Shown: one piece after another, positions 1 through 23,401 of the stretch
Position numbering within the stretch: position 1 is the first letter of the stretch
How the letters are laid out: the number at the start of each line of letters is the position of its first letter
NCBI GenBank assembly: GCA_946185535.1
Contig: CAMHJX010000032.1
Location: 1-35,631, forward strand
Direction: 5' to 3'
Length of the DNA: 35,631 nt
Origin: an uncultured Bacteroidales bacterium
GTDB lineage: Bacteria > Bacteroidota > Bacteroidia > Bacteroidales > F082
Notes under the pieces: model-generated
Told to the model about the DNA's origin: nothing
Databases searched by the model: none
What the model saw: the letters and a program-made list of their open reading frames with translations, nothing else
Made by a program: the position numbers and the translations under genes

Positions 1-163
1 TTTGGTACCATTCAACAGCCTTGGCATAGTCTTGGCCAACGCCTTTACCGTTTTCGTACAAATATCCTAGCTCACACTGTGCGTAATCGTTACCTTGCTC
101 AGCCGCCTTTTGGTACCATTCAACAGCCTTGGCATAGTCTTGGCCAACGCCTTTACCGTTTTC
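1..163. repeat. 108-bp tandem repeat within Sel1 gene
   Basis: Bases 1-55 and 109-163 are identical, a 108-bp offset that equals exactly three times 36 codons. This is a recent duplication of a Sel1 repeat unit inside the gene. The array may continue left of the window. Confidence 0.9.
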
Positions 164-967
164 ATAGCAAATGCCAAGATTGTATTGGGCGGAAACCCAA
201 CCTTGCGCAGCTGACTTACGATACCACTTGACCGCCTCAACATAGTTTTGCCCAACGCCTCTACCATCACGATATCGATGGCCCAAGACAGCTTGTGCTC
301 TTGCAAAACCTTGATCCGCTGATTTTCTATACCAAGGCAAAGCCTTTGCAGCATCTCTTATCGATTCATCATCTCCATCCTGTCCTTCGTAACAGAATCC
401 AATATACAATAATGCCTCAGCATCATTGGTGGCTGCTACAACCTTTTCAAGACACGATATGGCCAAATCATAAATGTGAGCTTCGTAATACTCTTTTCCT
501 TTTTGGAGATTGTCTTGAACCTCTTGTGCAAGTTGTGTTTTTTTAAGTTCATCCTGCTCTTTCTCTTTTTTCCTTTTATCCTTTTCTTTCTCCTTTTCCT
601 CTTTTTCGGCAGTGGCTTGAGCAATTTTGCTTTCTTGGTTTTTCTTGAATATGTCTTCTTTTTCTTTCAAGTCTTTAACCAAAAGCAGATAATTCTTACC
701 TGGTTCCATGGCATCAATCACCTGATCTTCGGTAATCTCATCGAATTGTTCAGACTCAATGGTTATCAGATGCTGTCCCGTTGGGATGGAAATCTTCTTG
801 ACTTTGTTAGCCTCAAACAAATCCAAGAAATCCCCATCGCAATACAACTTGCAATTTATATCAACCTTCACGGTCAAAGTGGCTTCAGAATTTTCTTGTG
901 TTTTGTTTGTCTTTGGCTCAGAATCTTGTATGGAATTGGCCAGGCTCTCAAAATAGTTGTTGTCCAT
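1..967 (-). CDS. Sel1-repeat protein with PEGA-like N-terminal domain (C-terminus beyond window)
   Basis: The reading frame starts at ATG 967 and stays open to the window edge, so the C-terminus is missing. About 322 residues are visible. Residues about 28-95 are beta-rich and resemble PEGA-type domains (ending near an IPTGQHLITIES stretch). A strongly charged Lys/Glu coiled-coil follows at about 105-140, then a TPR-like segment and at least four Sel1 repeats with the typical A(x)WY(R/Q)K(S/A)A(x)QG pattern. The last repeats are almost identical at DNA level with a 108-bp (36-residue) period. No signal peptide or membrane segment is seen, so it is probably a cytoplasmic scaffold. Only 16 nt separate it from the WXG100-like gene upstream, suggesting one transcript. 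Sel1 proteins usually mediate protein-protein contacts; the partner here is unknown. Confidence 0.85.
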   Translation of the reverse strand, partial: MDNNYFESLANSIQDSEPKTNKTQENSEATLTVKVDINCKLYCDGDFLDLFEANKVKKISIPTGQHLITIESEQFDEITEDQVIDAMEPGKNYLLLVKDLKEKEDIFKKNQESKIAQATAEKEEKEKEKDKRKKEKEQDELKKTQLAQEVQDNLQKGKEYYEAHIYDLAISCLEKVVAATNDAEALLYIGFCYEGQDGDDESIRDAAKALPWYRKSADQGFARAQAVLGHRYRDGRGVGQNYVEAVKWYRKSAAQGWVSAQYNLGICYENGKGVGQDYAKAVEWYQKAAEQGNDYAQCELGYLYENGKGVGQDYAKAVEWYQ

Positions 968-983
968 AATTGTATAGCTTTGA

Positions 984-1271
984 TTAATAATACTTTTGCT
1001 GCTGTGCCATGCGATGAATCTTTACCATCTCAGCCACATATTTGGAAAAGACTTCCATCTTGACCGAAATCTCTTGGATTTTCTTCATGATATCTTGGTC
1101 AAAATCGCGTGAGAATTGTTGGTATTGGTCATCGTCCCAGTATGAAGCAACACTTTGTGTCTGCTGTCTCATTTTCTGAAAAATCTGCAACATCTGTTGG
1201 TTGACATTGGCAATGTTTTTGCCATATTGCTCCACAGCGGAGACGTTTTTCATTGAACTGTTATCTGCCAT
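984..1271 (-). CDS. WXG100-like (EsxA/ESAT-6 type) small helical protein
   Basis: The gene encodes 95 residues, the standard length of WXG100 proteins. It is predicted as two long helices separated by a turn at Y44-W45-D46-D47, with W45 exactly where the W-x-G turn sits in EsxA. After the turn comes a Q-Y-x-x-F-x-x-x-F pattern that mirrors the AFSRFEEQF region of staphylococcal EsxA, followed by an amphipathic helix ending MAQQQKYY. The Gly of WXG is replaced by Asp, and I see no clear YxxxD/E export signal in the tail. There is no signal peptide and no Cys. It lies 18 nt downstream of the FtsK-like ATPase gene and 16 nt upstream of the Sel1 gene. Family members are secreted substrates or structural dimers of type VII secretion. 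Assignment rests on length, helix pattern, Trp position and neighbour. Confidence 0.72.
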   Translation of the reverse strand: MADNSSMKNVSAVEQYGKNIANVNQQMLQIFQKMRQQTQSVASYWDDDQYQQFSRDFDQDIMKKIQEISVKMEVFSKYVAEMVKIHRMAQQQKYY

Positions 1272-1289
1272 AGTTTTATTGCTAATAAG

Positions 1290-3929
1290 TTATTTTTTCG
1301 ATTTAATAATGTCATTATCCGGCGTTTGGAAAGGTGTAAACAAAATGGGCGCATCACCTTCGGGATAGTAATATGCGCGAAGGCGTTCTTCCTCATCGCT
1401 GAGTTGCTCTACGTCAATGTCAACACTAAACCGCATAGGCGTCAGAAATTTGTTTTCTGACTTAAGGATGACTTTATGACGGAACTTGTCTGTAGCATTG
1501 ATCGCGTAATCTCCCTCGAAGAGAATATTGCCAGGCTTATCAACCTGCAAGAGCACGTGTATGCCATGTATAGGACCTTCTTCGAGGATGTATTCAAGTG
1601 CTTTGGGATATGTTTGAGGGCCTCCTGGATGACTAGGATTGGAAGTACTATTAATATCAACAATTGCATCCATATCAAATCCTAAAGTTTCGATACCAGC
1701 GATGCTATCATTCTTGTTCATACTTTTATCTACAAGTGGCATGTTGCGCTTTATCTCAACAAACCGTTCGCTTCCGATAATGGCAAGCACCACAGGATGG
1801 GCGCACATATTTCGGATGTCTTCGGCAATGGCTGCAAACGTGCGGCCACTCTTTGTGCGCTCTATGAGGTGGCAAAGCCCTTGGTCGCTCCATGTTTTTA
1901 ATAGTTCTTTATAAGGACTCTTTACATCCTGCAAGCAATCAATGACAAGGAAATCGCAAGGTTGGCCCATCTGCTGATAAGAATACATAAGCGATGCCAA
2001 GGCGTTGAGCATTACACCAGTAGTTTGCCCCTCTTTGTTGGCTCCAAAGAAAAGGATGTTTTCCGAAAAGTCTTTGCGCAAAAAAATAGCAGTGGATTCG
2101 CCACTCAATCCTATGTTCTTTCCCACTAATGCGACAGGTGTTTCGGCATTGGCATATTCCGCAAGGTCTTCTTTTTCGAGTGAAAAAACAGAAGATCCGC
2201 TGAAATAGAACGCTCCATTACCTGCATAGGAAGCAGCTTTCTCCTGCGACAACAGAATGGCGGTTTCTAATTCTTCATCCTTTGCAAAGAAAGACTGTAC
2301 TCGGCTCTGCAACTGTTTCTTGTGATAGTAACAAGCCAAGCCTGTGGGTTGCTTGGAGGTAATATCGCTACTGTCAGGAACAAGGCGGTCGGAATCGGAT
2401 GGGGCACTCATGAGCAGGAAACACTCGGTCAGGTTTTTCAACACCTGCCCAGAAATATCTGTTTCGTCGAGCTGCTGCGTTGCCAGCAACATGTGGATGC
2501 CTTGGCTTCGTCCCTGGGTGGCGATGATATTAAGAATGTCAGCGATTTCGCCCTGGATGATTCTCTGTGTCCCGTTTTTGGCTGGTTGAAACATTATCTG
2601 ACATTCGTCTGCCACAAATAACACCTGAGGCAAACGGGCATCAGGATGCTTGCGGTTATATCCATCAATATTATTCACATTCTCCTTTCGCCAAAGCTTG
2701 ATTCGGTGGGTATTTTCTTCCTTAAGTTCACGTAACACCTCCAAAGTCATCTGTGGGTCGCTGTTGTCCACCAAGACAGCCTTGGTGTGCTTCACACCAC
2801 GATAACGATTAAACTCTACTCCCTTGAAATCCATGAGGTAAAGCATAAGGTCATCCGGTGAGTACTTCAATATGGCTGTAGTGATGATATTATTAAGTAG
2901 TACAGACTTGCCCGAACCAGATTGTCCTAAAATGAAAGCATGAATGTAATCGCCTGAGTTGAAACGAAGCGTCACTTCGTGCTTGTCTTCGATATCAAGC
3001 CCGACGGTTACACTGATTTCGGACATAACAGATTCGTATGGAATCGACTCAATATGGGCAAAATCTTGATTCAAAATGACACGCTTGTTTTGTTTGCCAG
3101 CCTTTTCAACTTGAGAGAGTATCGCATTTTTATACTTCTCTAAAGTGTTGTTGTCTATGAACCCGCTGTCAAGTTTTAATTCAAACTTGTTCAATAAATT
3201 ATCATGTCCGCTATTCTTAAAGTAATACCTTCCATTTTTTGGAAAAAGCAATGTGGCCTCTCTCAAGATTGCTCCATAATCAATTTGAATGTCATGACGT
3301 TCTTCAACCTTGGCCTCCATATTCCAACTAAGAAAAACGAATACACCCACTTGTGTACTTTTGGCAGTCAAAATCTTGTAAACAAGCTCTTTTTGTTTGT
3401 CATTTACATTTGGGAAATCTGAAACAAACACAAACGTATATTTTATTCTGGCCTCATCTCCTTCCTTTTTATTTAGTTCATATAAATTGTCCAGTCCAGA
3501 ATTGTTTATAGCATCGCGCCTTACGGCCATTTCCCGATAGATAATTGAGAGACTTTTTGTAAACTCTTCAGAATCTGCATCAAAAAGAACCTTCTGAGAG
3601 CTTTTAAACAATGATTTATCTATCTTTTTTAATGAACTAAAATTCTCACCTGGCTGACCTCCATTATAGACTAGTAATTCACATAAATTGACTGGTAAAC
3701 ATAGTGATATTCTCCATGCAATCCTTTCCAAGCATTTGTTGGCAGCATCTTTTAGTCCCGCTGAATTATAAAGAAAACAAACGCCATTTGAAGCAAGCAA
3801 GTCAATCTTTGCAGGGAACACCTTGGCATCAGAAGAATACAACGATCCAATACATAGTCCTTCTTCAGGAAAATGCGGAGTTTCTTCTGGGTTTATAGTT
3901 ATTTCTATGGAATCCGCAATTGTGCTCAT
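1290..3929 (-). CDS. FtsK/SpoIIIE-type (EssC-like) ATPase with three core modules
   Basis: An 879-residue protein. Residues about 45-260 resemble the degenerate first ATPase core of soluble FtsK/SpoIIIE-like proteins (an L-V-Y-N-G-G...F-S-S-L stretch, then FVFVSDFPNV and GVFVFLSW) and lack a Walker A. The second core (about 300-560) is intact: Walker A G335-QSGSG-K341-S342, Walker B ending D441-E442, and an LLATQQLDET motif typical of FtsK/EssC. The third core (about 600-865) has a broken Walker A (G629-ANKEG-Q635-T636; Lys replaced by Gln). No transmembrane helix or FHA domain is visible, unlike Firmicutes EssC. It would be the motor of a type VII-like export system. The WXG100-like gene follows 18 nt downstream and the 68-aa gene precedes by 14 nt. 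A DNA translocase or a conflict-system NTPase remains possible. Confidence 0.85.
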   Translation of the reverse strand: MSTIADSIEITINPEETPHFPEEGLCIGSLYSSDAKVFPAKIDLLASNGVCFLYNSAGLKDAANKCLERIAWRISLCLPVNLCELLVYNGGQPGENFSSLKKIDKSLFKSSQKVLFDADSEEFTKSLSIIYREMAVRRDAINNSGLDNLYELNKKEGDEARIKYTFVFVSDFPNVNDKQKELVYKILTAKSTQVGVFVFLSWNMEAKVEERHDIQIDYGAILREATLLFPKNGRYYFKNSGHDNLLNKFELKLDSGFIDNNTLEKYKNAILSQVEKAGKQNKRVILNQDFAHIESIPYESVMSEISVTVGLDIEDKHEVTLRFNSGDYIHAFILGQSGSGKSVLLNNIITTAILKYSPDDLMLYLMDFKGVEFNRYRGVKHTKAVLVDNSDPQMTLEVLRELKEENTHRIKLWRKENVNNIDGYNRKHPDARLPQVLFVADECQIMFQPAKNGTQRIIQGEIADILNIIATQGRSQGIHMLLATQQLDETDISGQVLKNLTECFLLMSAPSDSDRLVPDSSDITSKQPTGLACYYHKKQLQSRVQSFFAKDEELETAILLSQEKAASYAGNGAFYFSGSSVFSLEKEDLAEYANAETPVALVGKNIGLSGESTAIFLRKDFSENILFFGANKEGQTTGVMLNALASLMYSYQQMGQPCDFLVIDCLQDVKSPYKELLKTWSDQGLCHLIERTKSGRTFAAIAEDIRNMCAHPVVLAIIGSERFVEIKRNMPLVDKSMNKNDSIAGIETLGFDMDAIVDINSTSNPSHPGGPQTYPKALEYILEEGPIHGIHVLLQVDKPGNILFEGDYAINATDKFRHKVILKSENKFLTPMRFSVDIDVEQLSDEEERLRAYYYPEGDAPILFTPFQTPDNDIIKSKK

Positions 3930-3943
3930 TAGATTAATGTGTG

Positions 3944-4150
3944 CTATATGGTTACATAACTGGATTTGCCATCATACTTGCGTACTTGTCCGTTTGACAA
4001 TTCGACAATCAAATTGCCGCCTTGCCATCTGGCGGCAACAGCATTGCCGACATAAACAGTTTCATAATAACCATGGGGCAGCAAAAGATTTACATTTCCG
4101 TTCACAACCTTAGCCACTTCAACTTCAAAGTATCTTGAATCCCAAGCCAT
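3944..4150 (-). CDS. small beta-rich protein of unknown function in the WXG100/ATPase cluster
   Basis: 68 residues from ATG 4150; an in-frame GTG at 4162 would add four. The sequence alternates hydrophobic and polar residues (FEVEVAKVV, NLLLPHGYYE, NLIVELSNGQVRKYDG), suggesting a small all-beta fold. It has no Cys, signal peptide or membrane helix. I do not recognise a family. Its stop is 14 nt upstream of the ATPase start and its frame is undisturbed, so it is probably the first gene of the ATPase/WXG100/Sel1 operon. Position makes it a candidate accessory component or chaperone, as small ubiquitin-like YukD/EsaB proteins are in Firmicutes, but sequence similarity to those is not evident. 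Confidence 0.65.
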   Translation of the reverse strand: MAWDSRYFEVEVAKVVNGNVNLLLPHGYYETVYVGNAVAARWQGGNLIVELSNGQVRKYDGKSSYVTI

Positions 4151-4251
4151 TGTATAATACACTTTTTCGTGTCGTGCGTAACTTCTTATTTTTGCCTACT
4201 CTAAAAGCTTTTCGGCATCCGCTGCATCGTTCGCGCTGGGAAAGAAGGCAA

Positions 4252-4425
4252 CAAAAAAAGCCCGCACCCCAATCCTATCTTGAAGTGAAGGCTCTCGCAT
4301 GACCGAAACAAAGATAAGGAAAGCAGTGCGTGCTTTATGGGCACGCAGCGCATCCAGCCTGCCATGTTTCGTTCAAATTTGCGAGATTCTCACTTTCAGA
4401 CAGACGGTATCGCTACCGATAATAA
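4252..4425 (-). ncRNA. structured small RNA, candidate 6S-like (Bacteroidales-1 type)
   Basis: On the minus strand a consensus -7 box (TATATTTG, 4438-4431) precedes a stretch of about 175 nt without a plausible ORF. It folds into a rod. From the 5' end there is a small hairpin with a GCGA tetraloop (stem CGGTA/TACCG). Then come nested helices: TGTCTGAA with TTCAAGATA, TGAAAGTGA with TCACTTCA (one bulge), TCTCGCA with TGCGAGA, and CGAAACA with TGTTTCG. The apical hairpin is TGCGTGC/GCACGCA with a 7-nt loop. The 3' end is GCGGGC followed by seven T. A long, internally bulged hairpin of this size with its own promoter is what 6S RNA homologues look like, and Bacteroidales-1 RNA is the known relative in this order. 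I assign it by architecture only; a leader RNA for the downstream operon is the alternative. Confidence 0.55.
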
Positions 4426-4430
4426 TGCAG

Positions 4431-4458
4431 CAAATATACAAATTTTTCGCTTTTGCAA
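4431..4458 (-). promoter_or_regulatory. promoter of the small RNA
   Basis: Bacteroidota-type -7 box TATATTTG at 4438-4431 on the minus strand, with TTG at 4458-4456, 17 nt upstream. The predicted start is near 4425. Confidence 0.6.
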
Positions 4459-4603
4459 CAATTTTTGCACATTTTTCCGGCAAACCACCAGCACTGCTAT
4501 CCGAGGGCAAAAGTAGAGGTTTTAATAAAACTAGGTGTGGTACTTTTCGGTACTTATTATAGAGAAGGAACGGATAGAAAAGCTCACTTGTCCACAGCTA
4601 TTA

Positions 4604-6478
4604 CTACAAAGTGGAAAGATTCAGAAACTGTGGTTCGCCTCCGTTTTTAATGATGGCAACTCCTTCCGAAACAATGATGGACTCGCTCTTGGGCACGATA
4701 ACCCTGCCATTGATGTCGATAATGGTATAAAACCCGTCTTTGGTCTTTGCAAGAATCATGGCAAAGCCCTCCAAATATGTCGTCCGAGCATAAATACCTG
4801 GCTCAATGCTCATCTTCCCCCCTCCATTCACCACACCAAAATCATTTTCATATCGACCAAGCAAAAAAGCACCATCTTCAGCTTTTTTTCCATAAGGATA
4901 GTTCAGATTGGTGACATGCTCCATACGAACATTGACAACACCATACCCTTCGTCAGTCTCAGCAAGTGCAAGGTCATTACTATTGAAATCTAAGCGGTGC
5001 TTGAATATCGGTTTCTCCAACTCCTTGCCATCCATTCCTATATAACCATACCGTCCAAGCTTTTTCACAGGTATTATTCCCTTTTTGCTGAATGCTAATT
5101 CCACATCATTATACTCAGTTTCAGCAGGTAGAGGATTTAGGTAAATCACATAATCTGGAGTCCGTCCACGTCTTCTTCCGATATAAAAATGATAATCCTC
5201 TGCCAGTGTAAGTATTTCTCTGTAATTAAACAAATATTGCCGCCCATTTGGCGCAACCAATCCATACTTCCCATCCAGGCAACAAACGGCGTACCCGTCT
5301 TTAAACGCTTTGGCATCTTGATAGATGGCCGGGATAACCTCCTTCCCATTTCTGTCAACATACCCATATAGGCCATTCGTTTCATCCAAAAAAAACAATG
5401 GCGATGCAGTTTTGCTTTCCAACTCAGCACGTTGATACTGTTCAAGATAACTTTGTGCAAGGGCATCTTGGTCTAAGTCTGTCGGAACATCGGAATTCAT
5501 GGGAATTTGTACATGGACAACATCCAACTTTGGCTTGATCGGAATTCCCACCTTAATAGTATCATGCCTCTCTTCAACAATAAAAACCGTGTCGGTCACT
5601 ATTTCAGATTGCGTCTGGATTTCATCGTCAGTAACAAGTCGTTTGTCTGCTTTTCCGTTTATGTGTTTGCTGGTGAGAAACCACACCAATAACGGCACAA
5701 CGAACACCAAGAGCGACACCCATCGTGAAAGAAAATCCCTAAAACGAAGGGCTTTTCGCACCTCATTGATGTTTTTATGCCGTTTTGAGGCTTTTTTCCG
5801 CTGGCATTTGCGCACAACCCCTCCGTATCGGTGTGGAAACAACGCCTTGATGACAAAACCCAAGGAAAAGATGTCGCTCGTGACATCCGTCTGCTCGCGG
5901 TTCGCCAACTCGGGCGCGGCAAATGCTTCCGTGCCTCCTGTGGCCTTGTCGCGGTTGGAATCGCTGTCGGCATAGCCGAAATCTATCAGCTTGACATTGT
6001 GTCCATTATAAGTAACAAGTATGTTCTCTGGCTTCAAGTCATTATGAACAACTTGGTGCTTGTGGATAAAACCCACCGCGTCAAGCAATTCATTCAGAAT
6101 ACGTTTCTTCTCTTTGCTAGAGGGATTGTTTTTCAGATAGTCGGTCAAAGTCTCGCCATCCACATATTCCATGACGATGCAGGGGCCTACTTCGGCATCC
6201 TCGCACCAACTGATACACCTTACAATATGCTCATTGCCGTAAAGCTGTTCCAAAATCTTGTATTCTCGCTGCAAACGAGCAAGATTCTCCGCCGAGGCAC
6301 CTTGCCTCTGATTCAAGGCTTTCAGGAACAGTTTGCGCTCTCCGCTGATGACCGTAAATAAAATGCTATAGCCCGCACCTCTATAAGGCAATTGCTTATA
6401 ATCGTGGAACTTGGAAAAGCCATCCGACATTTCCCCGAATGATCCAGAAGTGTAACTATCATCCATACAGGCACACAT
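4604..6478 (-). CDS. membrane Ser/Thr protein kinase with C-terminal WG repeats
   Basis: 624 residues. An N-terminal Hanks-type kinase domain (about 28-245) has catalytic Lys K53, alpha-C Glu E72, catalytic loop H145-N-D147-LKPEN, D167-F-G and APE at 188-190. The HRD Arg is Asn and the Gly-loop is degenerate (YRGAGYS). A basic stretch (about 222-249) precedes one membrane helix at about 252-269. The remaining 355 residues lie outside the cytoplasm and contain a series of WG (KWG) repeats such as GLYGYVDRNGKEVIP, from about 365 to the end. A minus-strand -7 box TACTTTTG (6494-6487) lies so close to ATG 6478 that the second ATG at 6466 may be the real start. The gene is transcribed towards the WXG100/ATPase cluster and would sense an envelope signal and phosphorylate cytoplasmic targets. 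Confidence 0.88.
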   Translation of the reverse strand: MCACMDDSYTSGSFGEMSDGFSKFHDYKQLPYRGAGYSILFTVISGERKLFLKALNQRQGASAENLARLQREYKILEQLYGNEHIVRCISWCEDAEVGPCIVMEYVDGETLTDYLKNNPSSKEKKRILNELLDAVGFIHKHQVVHNDLKPENILVTYNGHNVKLIDFGYADSDSNRDKATGGTEAFAAPELANREQTDVTSDIFSLGFVIKALFPHRYGGVVRKCQRKKASKRHKNINEVRKALRFRDFLSRWVSLLVFVVPLLVWFLTSKHINGKADKRLVTDDEIQTQSEIVTDTVFIVEERHDTIKVGIPIKPKLDVVHVQIPMNSDVPTDLDQDALAQSYLEQYQRAELESKTASPLFFLDETNGLYGYVDRNGKEVIPAIYQDAKAFKDGYAVCCLDGKYGLVAPNGRQYLFNYREILTLAEDYHFYIGRRRGRTPDYVIYLNPLPAETEYNDVELAFSKKGIIPVKKLGRYGYIGMDGKELEKPIFKHRLDFNSNDLALAETDEGYGVVNVRMEHVTNLNYPYGKKAEDGAFLLGRYENDFGVVNGGGKMSIEPGIYARTTYLEGFAMILAKTKDGFYTIIDINGRVIVPKSESIIVSEGVAIIKNGGEPQFLNLSTL

Positions 6479-6486
6479 TATTGATG

Positions 6487-6494
6487 CAAAAGTA
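6487..6494 (-). promoter_or_regulatory. -7 box before WG-repeat kinase
   Basis: TACTTTTG read on the minus strand fits TAnnTTTG. No matching -33 element was found. The expected start is only a few nt before ATG 6478, favouring use of ATG 6466. Confidence 0.45.
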
Positions 6495-6525
6495 GGAATT
6501 TCCCGCCTTATCTGACCGATTATTG

Positions 6526-6533
6526 TAATTTTG
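6526..6533 (+). promoter_or_regulatory. -7 box for the 201-aa gene
   Basis: TAATTTTG matches TAnnTTTG, 23 nt before the ATG at 6557. It is divergent from the kinase promoter. Confidence 0.45.
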
Positions 6534-6556
6534 CCAGACCAAACAAAGCCACAACC

Positions 6557-7162
6557 ATGACAAAGACTTCCGTTTCAAGAAGCGCAAAAGAGCTTGACAA
6601 CTTGCGCGATGACATCAGAAAACGCGCTGGTTTTCAAGATAAAACTTTGTCTCCAAGCGATTTCGACTTCCTTGAGGAGGACATCAAAAAGGAACTATCC
6701 AAAACATTCATCAATGCGAAAACCTTGAAGCGCTTTTTCGGCTATGACAGAACGGAAGAAAGTTCATTCATAAGACTTTACACTTTGGATGTCTTGTCGC
6801 AATATGTGGGTTATGAAAGTTGGAACGCCTATCATGAGCATATACAACTTTTGGAAGGTAGCGGCTCCGGGGATTTCAAAGGAGAGGAAATCAACGCAGA
6901 TGATTTGAGCATTGGTGATGCCTTGCAAATCGCATGGCAACCTAATCGAAAAAGCACATTAAAATATCTTGGCAATCAAAAGTTTGAAATCACCAAAACG
7001 GAAAACTCGAAATGGCAGGTCGGAGACACTTTCTTTTGCAGGCATTTCATTTTGGGTAAGCCGCTTTATGTCGACAATCTGACTGACAAAAACGGCGTAT
7101 TGAAATCCTCAATGTATGTTGTTGGGGAAAAGAACGGAATTTATTTTCAATCGCCAATATAA
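6557..7162 (+). CDS. conserved Bacteroidota protein of unknown function (LKRFFGY-type N-terminal domain)
   Basis: 201 residues, the only plus-strand gene in the left 26 kb. Residues about 1-95 carry a helical pattern (TLKRFFGYDR, then RLYTLDVLSQYVGYESW) that I know from the N-termini of many Bacteroidota proteins of unknown function; it may act as a DNA- or protein-binding helical module. The C-terminal half (about 105-201) is beta-rich (DALQIAWQPNRKS, KFEITKTEN, WQVGDTFFC). No signal peptide or membrane helix. It is divergent from the WG-repeat kinase, sharing a 78-bp promoter region, and ends at a strong terminator. A regulatory role for the neighbouring cluster is possible but not shown. 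Confidence 0.7.
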   Translation: MTKTSVSRSAKELDNLRDDIRKRAGFQDKTLSPSDFDFLEEDIKKELSKTFINAKTLKRFFGYDRTEESSFIRLYTLDVLSQYVGYESWNAYHEHIQLLEGSGSGDFKGEEINADDLSIGDALQIAWQPNRKSTLKYLGNQKFEITKTENSKWQVGDTFFCRHFILGKPLYVDNLTDKNGVLKSSMYVVGEKNGIYFQSPI

Positions 7163-7194
7163 AAAAAGACCCTCGGTCACCCAAGGGTCTTTTT
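7163..7194. terminator. bidirectional intrinsic terminator
   Basis: A perfect 11-bp stem (AAAAAGACCCT 7163-7173 with AGGGTCTTTTT 7184-7194) around a 10-nt loop, with A- and T-runs on the two sides. It lies between the convergent stops at 7162 and 7215 and can serve both genes. Confidence 0.85.
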
Positions 7195-7214
7195 GTTACT
7201 GTTAACTAATTTAT

Positions 7215-7436
7215 TTAATACTCATCTTCGTTGAAGAAGAAATCATCTTTCGAGGGATAATCGGGCCAAAGGTCTTCGATGCGTTCGTATATCTCGCCTT
7301 CATCTTCGATTTCCTGAAGGTTCTCTATGATTTCTTCCTGTGCGCCCGTACGCAAAGCCCAATCCAACAATTCATCACGGGTGGCTGGCCATGGGGCGTC
7401 TTCCAATTTTGAAGCCAATTCTAGTGTCCAATACAT
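7215..7436 (-). CDS. DUF2795 family acidic small protein
   Basis: 73 residues from ATG 7436 (MYWTLELASKL...). Upstream in-frame codons are not used because the promoter -7 box lies at 7481-7474. The protein is very acidic, with the conserved W-P-A-T-x-D-E-L-L-D, NLQEIEDEGE and a FFFNEDEY C-terminus typical of the Bacteroidota DUF2795 family. Members are small, cytoplasmic and widely conserved, but their role is unknown. A single-gene transcript is likely, bounded by its own promoter and the terminator at 7163-7194. Confidence 0.9.
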   Translation of the reverse strand: MYWTLELASKLEDAPWPATRDELLDWALRTGAQEEIIENLQEIEDEGEIYERIEDLWPDYPSKDDFFFNEDEY

Positions 7437-7473
7437 TGTATTATCGTTTTTTGTTTTACTCTTTTTGAGGGCG

Positions 7474-7503
7474 CAAAAGTACAAGTATTTTTGGAACTAG
7501 CAA
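7474..7503 (-). promoter_or_regulatory. promoter of the DUF2795 gene
   Basis: On the minus strand TTG (7503-7501), a 19-nt spacer and TACTTTTG (7481-7474) match the Bacteroidota -33/-7 consensus. The start is expected near 7468, giving a leader of about 30 nt. Confidence 0.65.
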
Positions 7504-7530
7504 GTTTTTTTTTGTAAAAATAACGAATTT

Positions 7531-8091
7531 TTATTTATTTGATTCCCAATTATTTTCATTAACTTTGTCTAAAAAAACAAAAAATCTTGCCAAAACAAAA
7601 AAATAATCCGACAGACGGTTCAGGTATTTCAAATCGAGTGCGTCGACGGGATGTTGGGTTGCCAAACGCCAGCCCTGACGCTCGGCACGACGGCATACCG
7701 TACGGCACACATGAGCATACGAAGCCTTAAGGTTGCCACCTGGAATGACGAAGCTCCTCAGCTCAGGCAACTGCTCGTTCATCACATCGATTTCGTGCTC
7801 AACAAAAGCTACATCTTCAGGAGTCAACACTGGGATCTTTTTCTTCACTTCGGAGTTTTCATCCAAAGCAAAATGCGATTCTATAGTGAACAGCTTGTTC
7901 TGGATGATGTCCATCACAGTCCGCATCTCGGCAGTGACACTTTCCTGGTCATAAAGCACCCCGATGAAAGCACTCAATTCATCAACTGTGCCATAAGCCT
8001 CTACTCTGTCATCATATTTCGGGACGCGCAGACCACCAATCAATGAGGTCTTGCCTTCGTCACCAGTTTTAGTATAAGTGATATTCTTCAT
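7531..8091 (-). CDS. pduO: PduO-type cob(I)alamin adenosyltransferase
   Basis: 186 residues, the normal family length. The N-terminal ATP-binding motif TKTGDEGKTSL (about 7-17), the V-E-A-Y-G-T-V-D-E-L-S-A-F-I-G helix and the C-R-R-A-E-R-Q helix are all present. The enzyme transfers the adenosyl group of ATP to cob(I)alamin, giving coenzyme B12; it is cytoplasmic and trimeric in known homologues. It lies 43 nt downstream of a methyltransferase-like gene. No other B12 genes are in the window. Confidence 0.93.
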   Translation of the reverse strand: MKNITYTKTGDEGKTSLIGGLRVPKYDDRVEAYGTVDELSAFIGVLYDQESVTAEMRTVMDIIQNKLFTIESHFALDENSEVKKKIPVLTPEDVAFVEHEIDVMNEQLPELRSFVIPGGNLKASYAHVCRTVCRRAERQGWRLATQHPVDALDLKYLNRLSDYFFVLARFFVFLDKVNENNWESNK

Positions 8092-8134
8092 TTAAAAACC
8101 AAAATTCAAAGATTCAAAAATCCGCATTCAACAT

Positions 8135-8803
8135 TCAATATTTAAGTATAAAATCCTGTTTCTCAATGCCTTCACGGAAGAAAACAATGCCCACAGAATA
8201 CAAATCCATGCTCAAAGTAACGTCTTCGTCGGCGATAATGGCTTCCCAAGCTTCCTCCGTACGACCCGAATGATGTATTCCCTCAAAAATCAGCACCGTC
8301 TCCTCATTGGCTTGAGCATAGGCTTCCTCAAGTTTGTTCCAAGTGTCCTCGCCGAAATCATTCAACCCAAAAAACACATAATCGAGACTCAGGCGCTCCA
8401 ATTGCTCCGGCTCGGGTTTATCGCGACGCAACAGGTTGACATTGACCACACCCATTGAGTTCATAGTTTCAAGGAAGTCGGCTGAGTGATCGAGATAAAC
8501 CTTGGTTTGCAAGTTACCTAAAGCCAATGCCGTAGTATTGAGTGCCGAGAGCGTACCAAACGACACAACAGACTCGGGCTCAAGATAGTTGACCAAGCGA
8601 TAAAGCAATCGCGCTTCTTTGCGACGTGAACGCGTAGCATATCTCTTCCCATCCAACAAGCGACTGATTCTCAACATGGTATCGTAATCAGTATTGGGAC
8701 CTTTGTCGTACAAGACTTTGGTCATAAAGTCGTACACAAAAGGCGAATGCACCTTATATTTGCTCTTGCGTCGCAACAAATATTTCAGATAGCTCAACAG
8801 CAT
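8135..8803 (-). CDS. class I SAM-dependent methyltransferase-like protein
   Basis: 222 residues. The N-terminal KYKVHSPFVYDFM motif is typical of a Bacteroidota O-methyltransferase-like family. A Rossmann-like core follows: SVVSFGTLSALNTTALAL (about 79-96) in place of a glycine-rich SAM loop, KVYLDHSADF, LDYVFFGL and a late VLIFEGIHHS strand. The canonical GxGxG loop is degraded to SFGTLS, so SAM binding is not certain. The substrate is unknown. The start lies 3 nt after the stop of the secreted 518-aa protein gene, so they are probably co-transcribed. Confidence 0.75.
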   Translation of the reverse strand: MLLSYLKYLLRRKSKYKVHSPFVYDFMTKVLYDKGPNTDYDTMLRISRLLDGKRYATRSRRKEARLLYRLVNYLEPESVVSFGTLSALNTTALALGNLQTKVYLDHSADFLETMNSMGVVNVNLLRRDKPEPEQLERLSLDYVFFGLNDFGEDTWNKLEEAYAQANEETVLIFEGIHHSGRTEEAWEAIIADEDVTLSMDLYSVGIVFFREGIEKQDFILKY

Positions 8804-8806
8804 AAC

Positions 8807-10363
8807 TCAATCATATTGAACCTTTTGCAGATAAAATACTGAACGCTTTGCCTGAGGCTGACTGCTGTTTTGGATGATTTGCGAACCGTAGATAAGGAAT
8901 CGGTTGCCATACCATTTCATCATCTCAGCGAAATATTCATCATCCACATAGTCGCCACCATGACTCGGAGCCAATTTCTCGGTCTGTTGGTTCATCAAGA
9001 CTTGTGCATCTTTGTCGAAAGCGGTGTATCGCAAGTTGTTATGATAAGGCGAAGCTACCACCAACTCATCGAAGCATACACCTTCAGAGGCATGGGGAAA
9101 GAGGTCGTAGGTAAGCTCATTGTCAAACTTTACCGACTGCTGCCACTTTAAGTTGCCCTCTTGGTCAAAGGCTAACAGTATTTCACTAAAGAAGTCGTAG
9201 CCGTCAAAAACGGTATAAGTATACGGATAGCCACCATAATAGCCGTAATAGCCATAACTCATGCGCGTCTCAGTGTGGTAATATGGCATGAAAGCCTCCA
9301 CTGCAAACACCGTCAAGTCGCCAAAATCGGTCAAGCGCGGCGTAAGGAACTGGAACGCGATTTCGCCTTTCGAAGCCTTCTGGTTTTTGCTCAGTTTCAG
9401 CTTCTCTTCGCGCAACTTGACGCGGTCGGAAGCCGTCAAGGCATGCTCAATCTCGGGCATGTCCTTAAACAAATACACCTTACTATCGGGCGCTCCGTTA
9501 ACAAAGCGCATCCATACCACGCCGAGGCTCTCTTTATCGAAGTTTTCGGTCACGCCTTCGAGGTTGACTTTGCGTCCCGTCTCTCGTTCCAAAGTGCCAA
9601 TGACAACAAGGTTTTGGTTTTCATCAAAACGGAAGACCATGCGACCCAACGCGGCATTGGGGATGTTTTCATACCTAAAACTTCCCTGCATGTTACCCAT
9701 GGGCGAATAGACATTAAACGAGGTGGACACAAAGTGCTTGTCCACGTACTCCTTGGCTGCCACCACGAAACAATGTTCTTTCTGAAAGGCTTCTGTTTGG
9801 AACAGCACAAAACTCCCAGAGGAGGGCGTTACCACTCGGCATTGGTTGTTCGAAAGGTCATAGAAATGCAAAGCCCCGTTGCCGCTTTTGTTGTTGAGCG
9901 CCATCATCATCGTGCCGCCAGCCACTTCGACCGACAACGGCACCGACTTCTCAGGCCATTTGTTCCAAAAGGTCTGGTAGGTCTTTTCCTCCCGATTGAA
10001 ACTCACCACAAGAAAATCCAGTGAGTCGGCTGCTTTTTTGTTGCCCTCGTTAGTAAAAAGGAAGGCTGCAAATTGTTCGTCACTGCCCGAGTCGACAAAT
10101 TTAAGCTTGTCGGGCAAAGGAATCAAGTCGCTGCGGGTCTCATAGAGGCTACTGTCGACACAGGCAAAGTTCCACAAGCGACGTTTGTCCTTGTCGGTCT
10201 TTTCGGTCTCGTAAACCACGAGGCCACCTTTTTCATCAAATGACTGAAAATGAAAGTTTTGCTCCTTGTTCCATCGATTCACCTCATAGCGCACGGGCTC
10301 CACCTGCTGGGCTGAGGCCCAAGTAGTTAGGAAGAGGAATGCTATGAGGAGGAGTTTTTTCAT
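8807..10363 (-). CDS. secreted protein of unknown function
   Basis: 518 residues with a clear signal peptide (about 1-18, cleaved near ASAQQ). The mature part is rich in short beta strands and aromatic residues (for example a Y/G-rich SYGYYGYYGGYPYTYT stretch at about 370-385), which suggests a beta-propeller or other all-beta fold. It has no T9SS sorting domain and no lipobox, so it is probably periplasmic. It sits directly upstream of the methyltransferase-like gene. I do not recognise a named family. Confidence 0.75.
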   Translation of the reverse strand: MKKLLLIAFLFLTTWASAQQVEPVRYEVNRWNKEQNFHFQSFDEKGGLVVYETEKTDKDKRRLWNFACVDSSLYETRSDLIPLPDKLKFVDSGSDEQFAAFLFTNEGNKKAADSLDFLVVSFNREEKTYQTFWNKWPEKSVPLSVEVAGGTMMMALNNKSGNGALHFYDLSNNQCRVVTPSSGSFVLFQTEAFQKEHCFVVAAKEYVDKHFVSTSFNVYSPMGNMQGSFRYENIPNAALGRMVFRFDENQNLVVIGTLERETGRKVNLEGVTENFDKESLGVVWMRFVNGAPDSKVYLFKDMPEIEHALTASDRVKLREEKLKLSKNQKASKGEIAFQFLTPRLTDFGDLTVFAVEAFMPYYHTETRMSYGYYGYYGGYPYTYTVFDGYDFFSEILLAFDQEGNLKWQQSVKFDNELTYDLFPHASEGVCFDELVVASPYHNNLRYTAFDKDAQVLMNQQTEKLAPSHGGDYVDDEYFAEMMKWYGNRFLIYGSQIIQNSSQPQAKRSVFYLQKVQYD

Positions 10364-10470: not shown

Positions 10471-12141
10471 TTAGAACTTCACGAACTTCGATACTGCCGT
10501 CGTGCCGTTGGCATAGCGGACGTTGACGAAGTAGACACCGTTGACAAGTTCGTTAACATCGAGTTGGGCTTCGCCAGCTGCGACATTCATCTCGCTCACC
10601 TTGCGCCCCGTCATGTCGAAGACACTGACTTGGGCATCGCTTTCAAGCATAAACGACACTTGCTCGCGAGCGGGATTGGGATAGAGGCTCACCATCTGCC
10701 CGACGTTCTCATTGACACCTTCCGTATGATAAGTGTAAGCCCTCACATAATCAATTTCCCATGACGAGGCCGCCTCGTTGGTGCTGATGTAAATGAAAGC
10801 CAGATAGAAACCACCAAAAGGATTATAGTCATAGAATTCCTGATACACATTGAATGCGCCGGATTCAGCCCATTCATAGTTGCCTTGTGAGAAATTGAAA
10901 TGATCGGTAATGCTGTACCAAGTGAAATCCGTAGGATCGCTTTGGCCGTCATAATCAAAGGAAACAGCAACGCCAATATGATCGCCTTCAAACTTCATGG
11001 CCGTGCGGAACTCAATCCAGAGATCCATGAAACCACATTGCAGTTTTGGGCTGATGAGCCAGTCATCGTTTGCATTGTAAGTGCTATTAGCATAACCGTT
11101 GCAGACAGCGTATGTCGTGCCTTGGTAAGAGCCTTGATGCCAGCCTTGGTCACCGTACGCATCGAAAGTCGTAAACACGCCGAGGTCTTCGTCGAAGTCT
11201 TCAAACATCAGAATCTCAATGTCTTCCGTTGCTGCATCATCCGTCGGATAGGTGCCGTCAGTCTTGTAGTCAATGTAGATACTATTATTGGTGTAAGGGA
11301 AGATGGCGAAATGATAGGTGATGCCACTTTGCAGGCCGCTGAAAGTCACGGTTTGGGCACCATAGTTCACATTCATGGCAAGTTCGCCATTTGGAACAGG
11401 CACGCCATCGGTGGGAACGGTGATGTTGCCCGTGGAACCAAGCACTAAATACTTGTCAGGCACTTGCCCACCTGTGGCATCGGTCCAAGTGAGGGTGACA
11501 TCCGTGCCGTTTACTTCCGAAACCCTGAAGTTCGTGGGGTAGTTGGTCGGCTCGGGTTTGGGTTGCGAAGTGCCGCCAACCTTGTACAGGCTGACTGGAA
11601 CATTGATGGACGAGTTGCTGTTGTAGCAACTGAAAAGCGGGTCGCCGTTGGAGCTGTTCTCGTTGAAACGCATGATGTTGCGCGTGTTCTCGCCTTGGGC
11701 GGTCACCACAGCCGTACCATCATCATTGAACTCAATGGCCCACTCGCCGTTGAGGTTGTTAGGGGATTGCGTCTTCAGCTGGTTAGCAGAACTGCTGGCA
11801 GCATAAAGGTAACCTTCTCTCAACGGATCGTAGAACTCCCAAGCACCATTGCTACCCATCAAAATGAATTGATGCGCCTCGGTTTGGCTACTCGGGTCAG
11901 TGGCCGGCGTGAGGGAGATACTGCCTCCGACTTCCGTCACCTGAATTGCGTGGCGGTTGTTTGACTTCTGGTAACTCATGGCGCAATAGCCAAGGTTGTC
12001 GTCGTAGCCCACAATGAGGTACGATGTTCCGGCCTCAAGTTCTGAAGCCGAGTTGACTTTTGTGAATGTGAGGGCGGTTTGCGCAATGCCGCTCACCGAA
12101 AAGAGCAGCATGGCCACTAATGAGAATAGAACTTTTTTCAT
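10471..12141 (-). CDS. T9SS cargo with Fn3-like and choice-of-anchor-J-type domains
   Basis: 556 residues from ATG 12141, chosen because the signal peptide (MKKVLFSLVAMLLFSVSG, cleaved near AQT) begins there; an in-frame start at 12165 would add eight residues. An N-terminal beta-rich domain covers about 22-190. A fibronectin type III-like domain lies at about 200-300 (FRVSEVNGTDVTLTWTDA). A jelly-roll resembling choice-of-anchor J domains lies at about 310-465 (FEDFDEDLG, NDDWLISPKLQ, WEIDYVRAY). A T9SS type A sorting domain ends the protein (SLYPNPAREQVSF to VSKFVKF). It is exported by Sec and then T9SS and probably attached to the surface. There is no catalytic motif that I recognise; adhesion or glycan binding is likely. 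Confidence 0.88.
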   Translation of the reverse strand: MKKVLFSLVAMLLFSVSGIAQTALTFTKVNSASELEAGTSYLIVGYDDNLGYCAMSYQKSNNRHAIQVTEVGGSISLTPATDPSSQTEAHQFILMGSNGAWEFYDPLREGYLYAASSSANQLKTQSPNNLNGEWAIEFNDDGTAVVTAQGENTRNIMRFNENSSNGDPLFSCYNSNSSINVPVSLYKVGGTSQPKPEPTNYPTNFRVSEVNGTDVTLTWTDATGGQVPDKYLVLGSTGNITVPTDGVPVPNGELAMNVNYGAQTVTFSGLQSGITYHFAIFPYTNNSIYIDYKTDGTYPTDDAATEDIEILMFEDFDEDLGVFTTFDAYGDQGWHQGSYQGTTYAVCNGYANSTYNANDDWLISPKLQCGFMDLWIEFRTAMKFEGDHIGVAVSFDYDGQSDPTDFTWYSITDHFNFSQGNYEWAESGAFNVYQEFYDYNPFGGFYLAFIYISTNEAASSWEIDYVRAYTYHTEGVNENVGQMVSLYPNPAREQVSFMLESDAQVSVFDMTGRKVSEMNVAAGEAQLDVNELVNGVYFVNVRYANGTTAVSKFVKF

Positions 12142-12197
12142 TTTCTTAGATTTTATGTTTGACAATTAGTTTGATTTCAAATTGTAGGTCGGGCTTT

Positions 12198-13674: not shown

Positions 13675-16212
13675 TTAGTGTTCAATAGTGATACGCTTGG
13701 AGATGATTCCGCTCTCCGTCTTGACACGCAGCAGATAAAGTCCAACGGACATGTTTTGCAAATCAATAGTCGTTTGGCTATCTGCGACTTCTCTCTCTAT
13801 CATGCACTGACCCAATGCATTGTAAACCGAAACCGAAGTCATACCTTCAGCTTCGATCATGACAAAGCCTTTAGCAGGATTAGGATAAACCTTCACCTGT
13901 GCCTCATTTTCATCCATGCCTGTGGAAGAATAATAGGCGTGAAGCTCAAATTCATTGGGATAGTATTTCCTATTGGCAGGCGATGAGGTGCAGTCCCAAT
14001 CGCGATAATACGCATAGAGACGATAGTAGTAGTCGCCTTCCTCCGACAGCGAATTGTCCGTGAAAGTGGTCGCAGTGGCATTCAACACCTTGATGCGATG
14101 GTATTCGCCGTCGCCTTCTTTTCTGAAGAGATAGTAGCCCGACAGGCCGTCATTAGGCTGAGGAGTTTCCCAATTCAGCTTGACCTTATAATTGCTTGTA
14201 TACTCAAAATCCAAGTTGCGGGGAGGATAACAAGGGCCTGCCGTAGCGCAAGACTCGTTGGAAGAATCACCGTTTTCACCACCTTCACAGAGAACACTTA
14301 CACGGTAGCAATGACCACCCATGGCCACCGCTTCATCCAAAAAGGCATTGCCTGAAGGAATGAGACGATAAAGCAAATCGTCACGATAGATTTGATAGCC
14401 ATAACCCGCATGCTCAACGGCATCCCAGGTGAGCAAAATGGCATCACCTTGTGCAGTGGCGACAAGGTTTTCTGGCGTGTCGCAGGTCATCTCATTTCCG
14501 CAACCGTTGTTGGCCTCAAAGAAAACACCCGAAGTCAAGTCGTCGGAAGAGCCCGAATAGGAATACACGGTCTCCCCGTTGGAATTCTTGATGACAAAAG
14601 CCATTTGGCTGACGGTTTCCTCAGGTGCCGTCCACACAAAGCTCAAACGCCCCAAAGGCAACTCCGGTTCAGTCTGAACTGCGGCAGAAGTGGTGGTCGT
14701 CATTCGAGTGATTTCGCGTCCCGTGGCAGAACACACCATGAGCATGCCACCTTTCCAGCCTTGAGTATCATTAGATGTCATAATGATACGCCAGCTGCAA
14801 GATGGGCCAACCATCACTTTCATGACATTGGCATGTTTTCCGACGCGGCCATTGGCGACAACATACACCGCATAGTGAAACACATCGTAGCGCGGCACAT
14901 CGACATCTTCGAATTCCATCATGGCACCGGGAGTCACATCGGTCAAAGTCGCGATGACTTCATTGTCGCGCAACACCACAACCTGTTCGATTGCATTTAT
15001 CGGAGTGCCATCAAGGGTCGCAGTAGGATTGATCCAACTGAGGTGAACCTTGAGGTCAGTATCGGAAACGGGAACCGCTGTAAACTCCGAGGGAACCGAA
15101 GGCGTCTGGTTGTATACCTCCGAGGGAACAAAGTTGAACATGGCATCGGCGGGATTGGTGTAGGGCGCATCGTCGATGAGATACCAGCCGTCAGAGCCAC
15201 CACCCCAACCTAAGTTAAAGTGGAAGTAATCGTTGTCATCGTATCCGTCGCACACAAAGGCGTGACAACCACCGTTGTCGCAGCCACCGTAATACATCGG
15301 CCAGCCCATGTCGAACTGCTCGCGCACCATGGTCTTCCAAGTTTCGGTCTCAAAGTCATTGCGTCTGAGTTGCACATTGGAATCACTATAGTCGAAATAG
15401 GTATGCATAGCGCCTGGAATGGGACCTGAGCCGCCGCCACTACCATCCGGGCCATAGCCCATGTCGATAGTCACGCCGCAATGGAAGCACAGAGTTCCCG
15501 TGACCAATTTTTCTGCCTCTGTAGAGTTGTTGTCCAGCACATTGGGCATGTTGTCCCAGTCGTAAATGGTGTTGCCGAAGTCGGCACAAATCTGACCGTA
15601 AGTCTCATGAGTGTAGCAATGGCTGCCATTGCCTTGGGCAGGATTGGCCCAGAAACGCATCAACTGCGACATGGCTGTGGCGAGACAACCCACGATGGCA
15701 TGGCCACCCGATCCAGCCGGGTCTTCGGGGCAGCAACAGTTGTATGGATAAGATTGATCCCATTGGGTTTGGCAGAAATAGCCCGTACCGCGACCGCCGT
15801 GACGTGAGATGAGCCGTCCATGCTCAAGCACCGAAGCCCATTCAGCAGCCACATCGGGAGTGGCGACGGCATAACGCAGCTGCCACATACACTCCGCTAC
15901 GCCATCCAGATAATAGGATAACGCAGGTGGCATGTTGGAAGCATCGAAGGCCGATTGATCGGAGTAGCCAATGACAGGGCGGTGCGCATCATCGCCCGCG
16001 ATAATGATGAAACTGTGTTCATCGAGATTGAATACATAGTACGCCTCATTCTGACCCGTGTAAACGAGTTCGGGCATAGTGCGTTCCATCGCAAATTGTG
16101 TAGTGGCAAATCTCTGGGCCGCAGTCAAGGCGAGGCTGCGGTCGATGGGTCTGGCTTGAAGGATTGTTATGCTGAAGACAAGCACAACAACAAAAAAATG
16201 GATTTTTTTCAT
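13675..16212 (-). CDS. secreted C10 (streptopain/SpeB-like) cysteine peptidase, T9SS cargo
   Basis: 845 residues. Signal peptide about 1-20; a SpeB/Spi-like pro-domain (about 21-130, with YYVFNLDEHSFIIIAGDD); then the C10 catalytic domain (about 140-362). Catalytic Cys is C176 in VGCLATAMSQ and His is H317 in GGCHAFVCDGYD; the HFNLGWGG motif follows at 331-338. The domain is unusually Cys-rich (CCCPED, CFHC, CDNGGC). Downstream come Fn3-like domains and a T9SS type A sorting domain (VYPNPAKGFVMI to SKRITIEH). It is probably an extracellular protease made as a zymogen. It is 40 nt downstream of the YARHG kinase gene, so it may belong to the phospho-signalling transcript, though no regulation is shown. 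Confidence 0.92.
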   Translation of the reverse strand: MKKIHFFVVVLVFSITILQARPIDRSLALTAAQRFATTQFAMERTMPELVYTGQNEAYYVFNLDEHSFIIIAGDDAHRPVIGYSDQSAFDASNMPPALSYYLDGVAECMWQLRYAVATPDVAAEWASVLEHGRLISRHGGRGTGYFCQTQWDQSYPYNCCCPEDPAGSGGHAIVGCLATAMSQLMRFWANPAQGNGSHCYTHETYGQICADFGNTIYDWDNMPNVLDNNSTEAEKLVTGTLCFHCGVTIDMGYGPDGSGGGSGPIPGAMHTYFDYSDSNVQLRRNDFETETWKTMVREQFDMGWPMYYGGCDNGGCHAFVCDGYDDNDYFHFNLGWGGGSDGWYLIDDAPYTNPADAMFNFVPSEVYNQTPSVPSEFTAVPVSDTDLKVHLSWINPTATLDGTPINAIEQVVVLRDNEVIATLTDVTPGAMMEFEDVDVPRYDVFHYAVYVVANGRVGKHANVMKVMVGPSCSWRIIMTSNDTQGWKGGMLMVCSATGREITRMTTTTSAAVQTEPELPLGRLSFVWTAPEETVSQMAFVIKNSNGETVYSYSGSSDDLTSGVFFEANNGCGNEMTCDTPENLVATAQGDAILLTWDAVEHAGYGYQIYRDDLLYRLIPSGNAFLDEAVAMGGHCYRVSVLCEGGENGDSSNESCATAGPCYPPRNLDFEYTSNYKVKLNWETPQPNDGLSGYYLFRKEGDGEYHRIKVLNATATTFTDNSLSEEGDYYYRLYAYYRDWDCTSSPANRKYYPNEFELHAYYSSTGMDENEAQVKVYPNPAKGFVMIEAEGMTSVSVYNALGQCMIEREVADSQTTIDLQNMSVGLYLLRVKTESGIISKRITIEH

Positions 16213-17662: not shown

Positions 17663-17697
17663 AGTTCTTTTTGTTTGTATTATTTACTCAATTATTC

Positions 17698-18396
17698 CTA
17701 CTTTTCTTCAAACACACCTCCAAGAAACCGCTCCACTACTTCATTGAAGGCCTTTGGACATTTGTTCGCCACAAAATGGTCACCCTCAATGATTTCCAGC
17801 TTTGCATTGGGCAAACTCTTGTAAATAAGCCGTGTATGCGATTCCTTGATCATGTCCTTTGTGCCTGCCACAACCAACACAGGCATTGTCAGGCGAGCCA
17901 ATTCAGAAGGCTCAATGTGCGGCTCGTTCACCATCAGAGCGAGCATTTCGGCGTTTTGTTTGGCTTTCTCGGACTTCTTCGCAAATAGCTTTGCGATACG
18001 GTAGCCGATTTCGATGGGCCATTGGTATAGCGGCCTTACACCGCTCGGAAACAGGTTTGCGCCATCAATGATCAATTTTTCGACCCTTTCTGGGTATTTC
18101 AACGCAAAGGTCAAAGCAATATTACCACCATCGGAAAAGCCCAATAAAATGGCTTTTCCGATGGTATTTTGATCCATAAAGTCGTGCAAGTCCTCAGCAA
18201 ACTGGACAATGGTGAAAGGCTTCTCCCCTCTCGGCGACTGTCCATGACCGCGTGTATCCATGGCTATGACGCGATATTCTCTTGCAAAACAGGGTATCTG
18301 ATGCTCAAAATAGTCGCAGTTCTCGCCATTGCCGTGGAGCAAAATGAGTGGCTTGCCTTGGCCTTGTTCGACGTAATGAAGCTGGATGTCAAGCAT
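17698..18396 (-). CDS. alpha/beta hydrolase
   Basis: 232 residues from ATG 18396, which overlaps the TGA of the upstream FHA gene by one base (TGATG), a sign of translational coupling. Catalytic residues are visible: oxyanion loop HGNGEN, nucleophile S88 in GFSDGG, acid D181 in AGTKDMI and H207 in EGDHF. It has no signal peptide, so it acts in the cytoplasm. The substrate cannot be told from sequence; the family includes esterases, lipases and C-C hydrolases. Its place between FHA and kinase genes is unusual. Confidence 0.9.
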   Translation of the reverse strand: MLDIQLHYVEQGQGKPLILLHGNGENCDYFEHQIPCFAREYRVIAMDTRGHGQSPRGEKPFTIVQFAEDLHDFMDQNTIGKAILLGFSDGGNIALTFALKYPERVEKLIIDGANLFPSGVRPLYQWPIEIGYRIAKLFAKKSEKAKQNAEMLALMVNEPHIEPSELARLTMPVLVVAGTKDMIKESHTRLIYKSLPNAKLEIIEGDHFVANKCPKAFNEVVERFLGGVFEEK

Positions 18397-18920: not shown

Positions 18921-18951
18921 AATGATAAGATTTAGATGATTTTGTTATTGA

Positions 18952-19191: not shown

Positions 19192-19205
19192 AGTGTTTAG
19201 ATTAA

Positions 19206-19778: not shown

Positions 19779-19781
19779 AGT

Positions 19782-20603: not shown

Positions 20604-20631
20604 CTTATTCTATTCCTTATTTTCGCTATTA

Positions 20632-21813: not shown

Positions 21814-21818
21814 TTGAA

Positions 21819-23369: not shown

Positions 23370-23401
23370 AGGTGAATGGATTAAAAGAGAAAAGACAAGG
23401 T

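Follow-up and report, generated by a model that had tools for sequence, protein, structure and literature searches.

A hairpin gene beside an FtsK/EccC-like ATPase gene

The DNA analysed here (the window) is the whole of contig G000:C32:1-35631, which is 35,631 nucleotides (nt) long and one of the 86 contigs of an uncultured Bacteroidales genome, G000. Our subject is a pair of adjacent minus-strand genes near its start, encoding a helical hairpin protein of 95 amino acids (aa) and an ATPase of 879 aa. In the order of transcription, open reading frames (ORFs) for a Ser/Thr kinase, a 68-aa protein, the ATPase, the hairpin and a Sel1-repeat protein follow one another (Table 1). The gap between the kinase and 68-aa ORFs is 453 nt, whereas those between the 68-aa ORF and the ATPase, the ATPase and the hairpin, and the hairpin and the Sel1 ORF are 14, 18 and 16 nt, so that the last four genes resemble one operon. 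A sequence-only reading of the window had proposed that these five genes form a type VII secretion system (T7SS) module, built around a WXG100-type protein and a multi-core FtsK/SpoIIIE ATPase.

The predicted structure of the 95-aa protein (AlphaFold; mean residue confidence, pLDDT, 89.7; predicted template modelling score, pTM, 0.71) is the two-helix hairpin characteristic of the WXG100 superfamily, with helices at residues 10-41 and 48-94 and W45 at the turn, as that reading had anticipated. Compared alone with PF06013, the window protein gives a match of 9.8e-4 (19.8 bits), below the cut-off of 27.3. The WXG100 profile reaches 12 of the 13 members of the hairpin family at E<=1, the best at 2e-8, and a relative from Caballeronia, at 30.8 bits, exceeds the same Pfam cut-off. 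Moreover, the four best matches in PDB to the hairpin alignment (A1, with 13 rows, from which an ORF of locus L019 lacking the W was excluded) are all WXG100 entries. The family profiles and the AlphaFold model therefore support a WXG100 kinship of the 95-aa protein, although the turn motif is not the W-x-G of the superfamily: it is W-x-D in every row of A1, and both W and D are invariant in the 16 rows chosen for a second alignment, A3. None of the 13 hairpins carries a C-terminal YxxxD/E signal; the one match to it in the window protein (YWDDD) lies at the turn.

The claim of an FtsK/SpoIIIE ATPase was borne out by a match of 2e-26 to FtsK_SpoIIIE, and that of a divergent EssC/EccC-like enzyme in a diderm lineage by matches to EccCa (2.5e-23) and EssC (2.1e-20), both far under the curated cut-offs. 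Entries for EccC, EssC and YukB rank above FtsK, which is still significant (5.2e-23). Among the 24 related ATPases compared, there is a single [GA]xxxxGK[ST] loop, in the middle core, and the alignment suggests that the outer stretches are degenerate FtsK-like cores. The first core stands at the very start of the window ATPase, which has no transmembrane stretch, its maximal 19-residue hydropathy being 1.43 on a crude scale rather than from a dedicated predictor. Higher maxima in ATPases of loci described below as sister loci (L032, 1.83; L035, 2.83; L036, 2.28) mean that some of these may be membrane-anchored, and two others bear an N-terminal FHA domain (L037, 1.9e-12; L038, 2.3e-15).

In G306, a 291-aa gene adjoining the ATPase gene (L032:2337-3212, minus strand) aligns with the ATPase profile in its third core only (G306:C168:2382-3239) and is, to judge by that match, a split-off degenerate core. 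In G354 (L064:7616-10061, plus strand), a shorter ATPase ORF of 549 aa comes before a 165-aa ORF and, after that, one of 96 aa whose turn is a true W-x-G (WYG).

Table 1. Features of the first part of the window, with the basis of each assignment
Feature	Position	Strand	Basis
WXG100-type helical hairpin, 95 aa, W-x-D turn (W45, D47)	984..1271	-	Pfam, profile searches, model
Soluble three-core FtsK/EccC-like ATPase, 879 aa, Walker A loop in middle core only	1290..3929	-	profile matches, alignment
Middle-core Walker A, GQSGSGKS, residues 335-342	2904..2927	-	
68-aa small protein	3944..4150	-	sub-threshold IceA2 match (6.1e-4)
Sel1-repeat protein, truncated by contig end	2..967	-	Pfam
Ser/Thr kinase with WG repeats	4604..6478	-	Pfam; transmembrane segment by eye
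201-aa protein, DNA-binding regulator by eye	6557..7162	+	no Pfam family over cut-off
Accessory cassette	1..4168	.	without a BLASTN match in the syntenic region fetched from G495, a close relative

A BLASTP comparison (1e-4) with the ORFs of 19 related loci gave no homologue of the 68-aa protein, and the label "KTSC-like" given to it by eye has no profile behind it. Similarly, "PEGA-like", used below for the N-terminal part of the Sel1 protein, is a by-eye label that no Pfam model matches.

Further into the window, the earlier reading's cargo genes of the type IX secretion system were confirmed: Por secretion C-terminal sorting domains occur in the proteins at 10471-12165 (minus strand; 2e-13) and 13675-16212 (minus strand; 3.2e-13), the latter a C10 peptidase. 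About 12 kb from the cassette lies a minus-strand cluster (16253-24109) of two Ser/Thr kinases, a PP2C and four FHA proteins; a vWA label for part of 21819-23369 has no profile support. Because the PP2C has homologues (98% in G495, 93% in G506) in two genomes without a hairpin match, the cluster and the pair are not linked.

Pairing, spread and neighbours

We examined 14 Bacteroidales ATPase loci (A2: the window, 12 related loci and L003), which had been fetched by similarity of the ATPase and not of the hairpin. In 13 of these a W-x-D hairpin ORF is the next same-strand gene, 5-33 nt after the ATPase, a frequency beyond chance, so the two genes are neighbours in related genomes as the sequence-only reading had expected. 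The exception is L019, where the next ORF (97 aa) lacks the motif and has neither a Pfam nor a hairpin-profile match. As controls, five FtsK-like loci (L002 and L006-L009) gave no hairpin match within the approximately 1.5 kb of flank covered on each side.

The module is rare. At the level of the order, hairpin profiles matched 4 of 393 genomes; the corresponding counts are 3 of 173 for the family (G000, G523 and G525; A1) and 2 of 395 for the phylum (A3). The ATPase profile (A5) matched 6 of 393. These genome samples overlap. One related locus, L018, comes from Segatella copri iAQ1173. The cassette is also accessory within the genus. In the close relative G495, BLASTN aligned window positions 5777-10362 at 90.5% and 4169-4558 at 81.7%, whereas positions 1-4168 had no match in the fetched syntenic stretch, the match resuming at 4169. 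Among plasmids, 657 records matched the window ATPase, none with a match extending over 80% of the query. A phage origin was considered and rejected: a viral scan gave one weak locus, and none of the 184 phage records matching the ATPase did so over 80% of the query.

The idea of a single five-gene system did not survive these comparisons. Eight more sequences in the same genome match the kinase. The syntenic stretch of G495 contains its kinase domain, without WG repeats, together with the regulator, followed by RelA/SpoT-, HD- and SpoIIE-type genes, but no cassette; for this reason the kinase is probably not a dedicated part of the cassette. Homologues of the kinase and the 201-aa regulator adjoin each other in both L016 and G495, and among 19 related loci the two lie upstream of the cassette only in L016, although several loci are too short to show them. 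Given the arrangement in L016, a functional link between kinase and cassette is possible.

Other genes recur around the pair in the window's branch (BLASTP). A PEGA-like domain follows the pair in 8 of the 14 loci, some of them cut short (L010-L014, L016, L019 and the window), and an SPFH-GYF protein occurs in 6 of 14 (L011, L012, L014, L016-L018); in the Pfam scans of those from L016 and L018, GYF_2 was over its cut-off and Band_7_1 below or above its own. A zinc-ribbon protein is found in L011, L012 and L016-L018; L012 and L016 also have a gene for a LEM-3-like GIY-YIG nuclease (1.1e-15). A scaffold is suggested by the proline-rich tail in which the PEGA-like protein of L016 terminates, since GYF domains bind proline-rich ligands. 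A search of the window's own genome, run without a positive control, turned up no SPFH-GYF gene. In the literature searched, which did not extend to bioRxiv and was available in part, we did not find a description of this Bacteroidota branch, with its SPFH-GYF, zinc-ribbon and PEGA-like neighbours and no recognised toxin domains.

Sister loci with variable-ended coiled-coil proteins

At nine sister loci from four phyla, the ATPase gene stands beside at least one hairpin gene and a gene for a coiled-coil protein with a variable C-terminus. Six are from Bacteroidota (L032, L033 and L035-L038, with only part of the ATPase in L033) and three are on plasmids, of Helicobacter sp. NHP19-012 (L042), Caballeronia sp. 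SBC2 (L050) and Deinococcus actinosclerus (L060). Seven of the nine coiled-coil proteins, all except those of L035 and L042, were aligned (A6) and have in common a C...PxC..E-like signature, with A58, A65, L69, C72, C90 and E93 invariant and the proline not. Pfam scans of all nine placed a toxin-family domain at the C-terminus over cut-off in three: HNH in L033 (24.4 against 21.4), a papain-fold Gln_amidase in L038 (44.9 against 24.1) and WHH in Helicobacter (44.6 against 25.1). In L032 a GNAT match fell just under its cut-off (20.1 against 20.7), and the remaining five had no Pfam toxin match. The L033 gene is followed by a SUKH-like ORF, itself sub-threshold (22.0 against 25.4), and the gene after the Helicobacter WHH protein is annotated SMI1/KNR4. 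We found no account of such a variable-ended protein in the same partial body of literature.

Several labels assigned by eye found no Pfam family in their support (an ART-like end in L036, a ParB-like end in L032 and a restriction endonuclease-like end in Caballeronia), and a TerB-like label reached only 0.02, below cut-off. A kinship of the coiled-coil proteins with LXG was also rejected, the only match being sub-threshold (L021; PF04740, 9.6e-5, 22.8 against 26.5 bits) and standing among other coiled-coil matches. Within the window's branch, L020, L021 and L003 do have a coiled-coil protein, but none of the three gave a toxin match. The A6 profile matched 7 of 21 genomes, G000 not being one of them, and no coiled-coil effector domain was found in the window genome.

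Two further arrangements were seen. At L038:10909-12081 (plus strand), beside the papain-fold toxin gene, W-x-D hairpin domains are encoded twice, each with a Gly/Ser-rich tail, the total lengths being 135 and 244 aa. On Rhodococcus plasmids, genes for related middle-active ATPases lie beside Hsp70/GrpE genes (L059, with no hairpin match) or TerD genes (L062, with a hairpin match of 1.8e-7).

In an IQ-TREE phylogeny of 25 ATPases, rooted at the midpoint, a branch (96/100) has on one of its sides all eight rows whose loci encode a variable-ended coiled-coil protein, with or without a recognised toxin domain; the window is placed among 14 rows that are all from Bacteroidota. The ATPases of Deinococcus L060 and Bacteroidota L036 group together (97/97), and their loci share a gene order: hairpin, second hairpin without W, coiled coil, and a W-x-D protein of 144-152 aa. 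Together these suggest transfer between phyla. A loss of toxins in the window's branch is a guess, since the tree has an EccC branch longer than 7 and long branches for several rows, does not unite the window-type group in one clade (2 changes) and is rooted only at its midpoint.

Interpretation and relation to known systems

The reading that we favour, with somewhat better than even confidence, is that the pair is a T7SS-derived motor of the "solo WXG, middle-core-active" kind, using the W-x-D hairpin as adaptor or cargo. The pairing, the fold and the single Walker A loop being established, we infer the steps by which it would work. The hairpins would dimerise; by analogy with EsxB, which docks on EccC, the dimers would bind to a degenerate ATPase core, promoting assembly and activity of the enzyme; and the middle ring would then use ATP to move or remodel hairpin-bearing cargo. 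In the sister loci this cargo is probably the coiled-coil protein with its variable, sometimes toxic, C-terminus; in the window's branch it might be the hairpin itself or another partner, and the ATPase would reach the membrane only via other proteins, such as SPFH-GYF in the relatives. Export from the cell is a possibility. A more elaborate version, which we hold tentatively, is a T7SS-derived delivery route of diderms, Bacteroidota among them, in which a middle-active EssC-like motor with W-x-D adaptors serves, in the sister loci, polymorphic toxins (coiled-coil N-terminus, C...PxC..E) accompanied by immunity genes, the window's branch having shed its toxins to become an SPFH/PEGA-scaffolded machine with a new function.

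The main rival to the motor and adaptor, already raised as a counter-reading by the sequence-only reading, is an intracellular conflict or stress device in which the hairpin regulates a soluble ATPase whose cytoplasmic targets are nucleic acid or protein complexes, with nothing secreted. We regard it as a serious minority possibility. It would account for the solubility of the ATPase, the failure to find YukC or YukD and the SPFH-GYF, zinc-ribbon and GIY-YIG nuclease genes of the branch, and relatives lie beside TerD genes in Rhodococcus and beside VWA-PP2C-kinase and CARF genes in Caballeronia; the CoCoNuT paper (PMC11090510), in the parts available, puts such operons in defence loci. However, a W-x-D hairpin with variable-ended, toxin-like sister proteins comprises the usual parts of a delivery system, and the HNH and WHH ends adjoin SUKH-type genes.

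A canonical T7SS whose divergent membrane parts are encoded elsewhere in the genome is very improbable, and the strict T7SS module of the sequence-only reading was not upheld. The likeness to T7SSb/ESX, where EsxA is paired with EssC/EccC, is real: a WXG100 fold and an FtsK/SpoIIIE ATPase encoded by adjacent genes, as in 13 of the 14 loci. EssC ATPases bear FHA domains, and those of L037 and L038 resemble them in this. However, neither YukC (EssB) nor YukD (EsaB) exceeded its cut-off in any of 20 genomes, the nearest being one weak YukC match in G958 (19.9 against 27.4 bits), whereas Bacillus subtilis controls were positive for both; this search for membrane parts covered YukC and YukD (EccB, EccD, EccE, EssA and EsaA were not searched). 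The window also differs in its ATPase without a transmembrane segment, its one Walker A loop, its W-x-D turn and the lack of the C-terminal signal. A review of T7SS variants (PMC11217815) concerns, in the parts consulted, Gram-positives. Equally improbable is an FtsK-like translocase of chromosomal or plasmid DNA with an unrelated small coiled-coil neighbour: the FtsK matches are significant and chance resemblance is easy among short helical proteins, but EccC/YukB entries rank higher, the best PDB matches of the hairpins are WXG100 entries, their W and D are invariant, and FtsK-like control loci gave no hairpin match.

If the sister loci do deliver toxins, they represent an overlooked toxin-delivery route of gut Gram-negatives, and the Bacteroidales members pose the question of whether a WXG100 motor can work without the membrane parts of a T7SS. 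Solo-WXG modules with a middle-active ATPase have been mentioned in passing since 2012; in the portion of the literature consulted, no functional test was found.

Three other described systems come close. In Helicobacter pylori, HP0062 (with a W-R-D bend) and HP0066 form with an FtsK gene a cluster termed a "WXG100 secretion system" (PMC3397514, PMC4978471, as far as available); it belongs to another phylum and includes an HNH/ENDO VII nuclease and a DnaK homologue, which are absent next to the window pair. The extended Type III-A CoCoNuT, or TerY-P, systems are likened to the window by an ATPase with three cores, the central one active, and no transmembrane domains, and by WXG100 genes in the operon; the passages available (PMC11090510) describe an EssC-like ATPase accompanied by a coiled coil-nuclease and a pair of WXG100 proteins, and expect "a different mechanism". 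Their own features are an N-terminal coiled coil on the ATPase, a coiled coil-restriction endonuclease fusion and the TerY-P triad, none of which adjoins the window ATPase. Nuclease genes beside such pairs are thus already mentioned in the accessible parts of both the H. pylori and the CoCoNuT papers.

The closest is the module of Zhang et al., 2012 (PMC3482391), Table 1, footnote 6, of which reports a solo WXG together with a YueA-like ATPase that has three HerA/FtsK domains and is active in the middle one only; the parts of the paper available place such modules in several diderm lineages, including bacteroidetes, as apparent "mobile versions of T7SS". The window shares the solo WXG, the three cores (the outer two by alignment) with the Walker A loop in the middle one only, the diderm lineage and an accessory distribution (3 of 173 genomes of the family, and absence from the syntenic stretch of G495). 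Because this combination had already been named, the window cassette is a new member of a described kind and not the unheard-of system that the sequence-only reading implied. The passages give no gene-level description and mention no W-x-D turn, PEGA-like or SPFH-GYF neighbours, or toxins; beyond what they contain, the account is extended by the sister loci and the window's branch.
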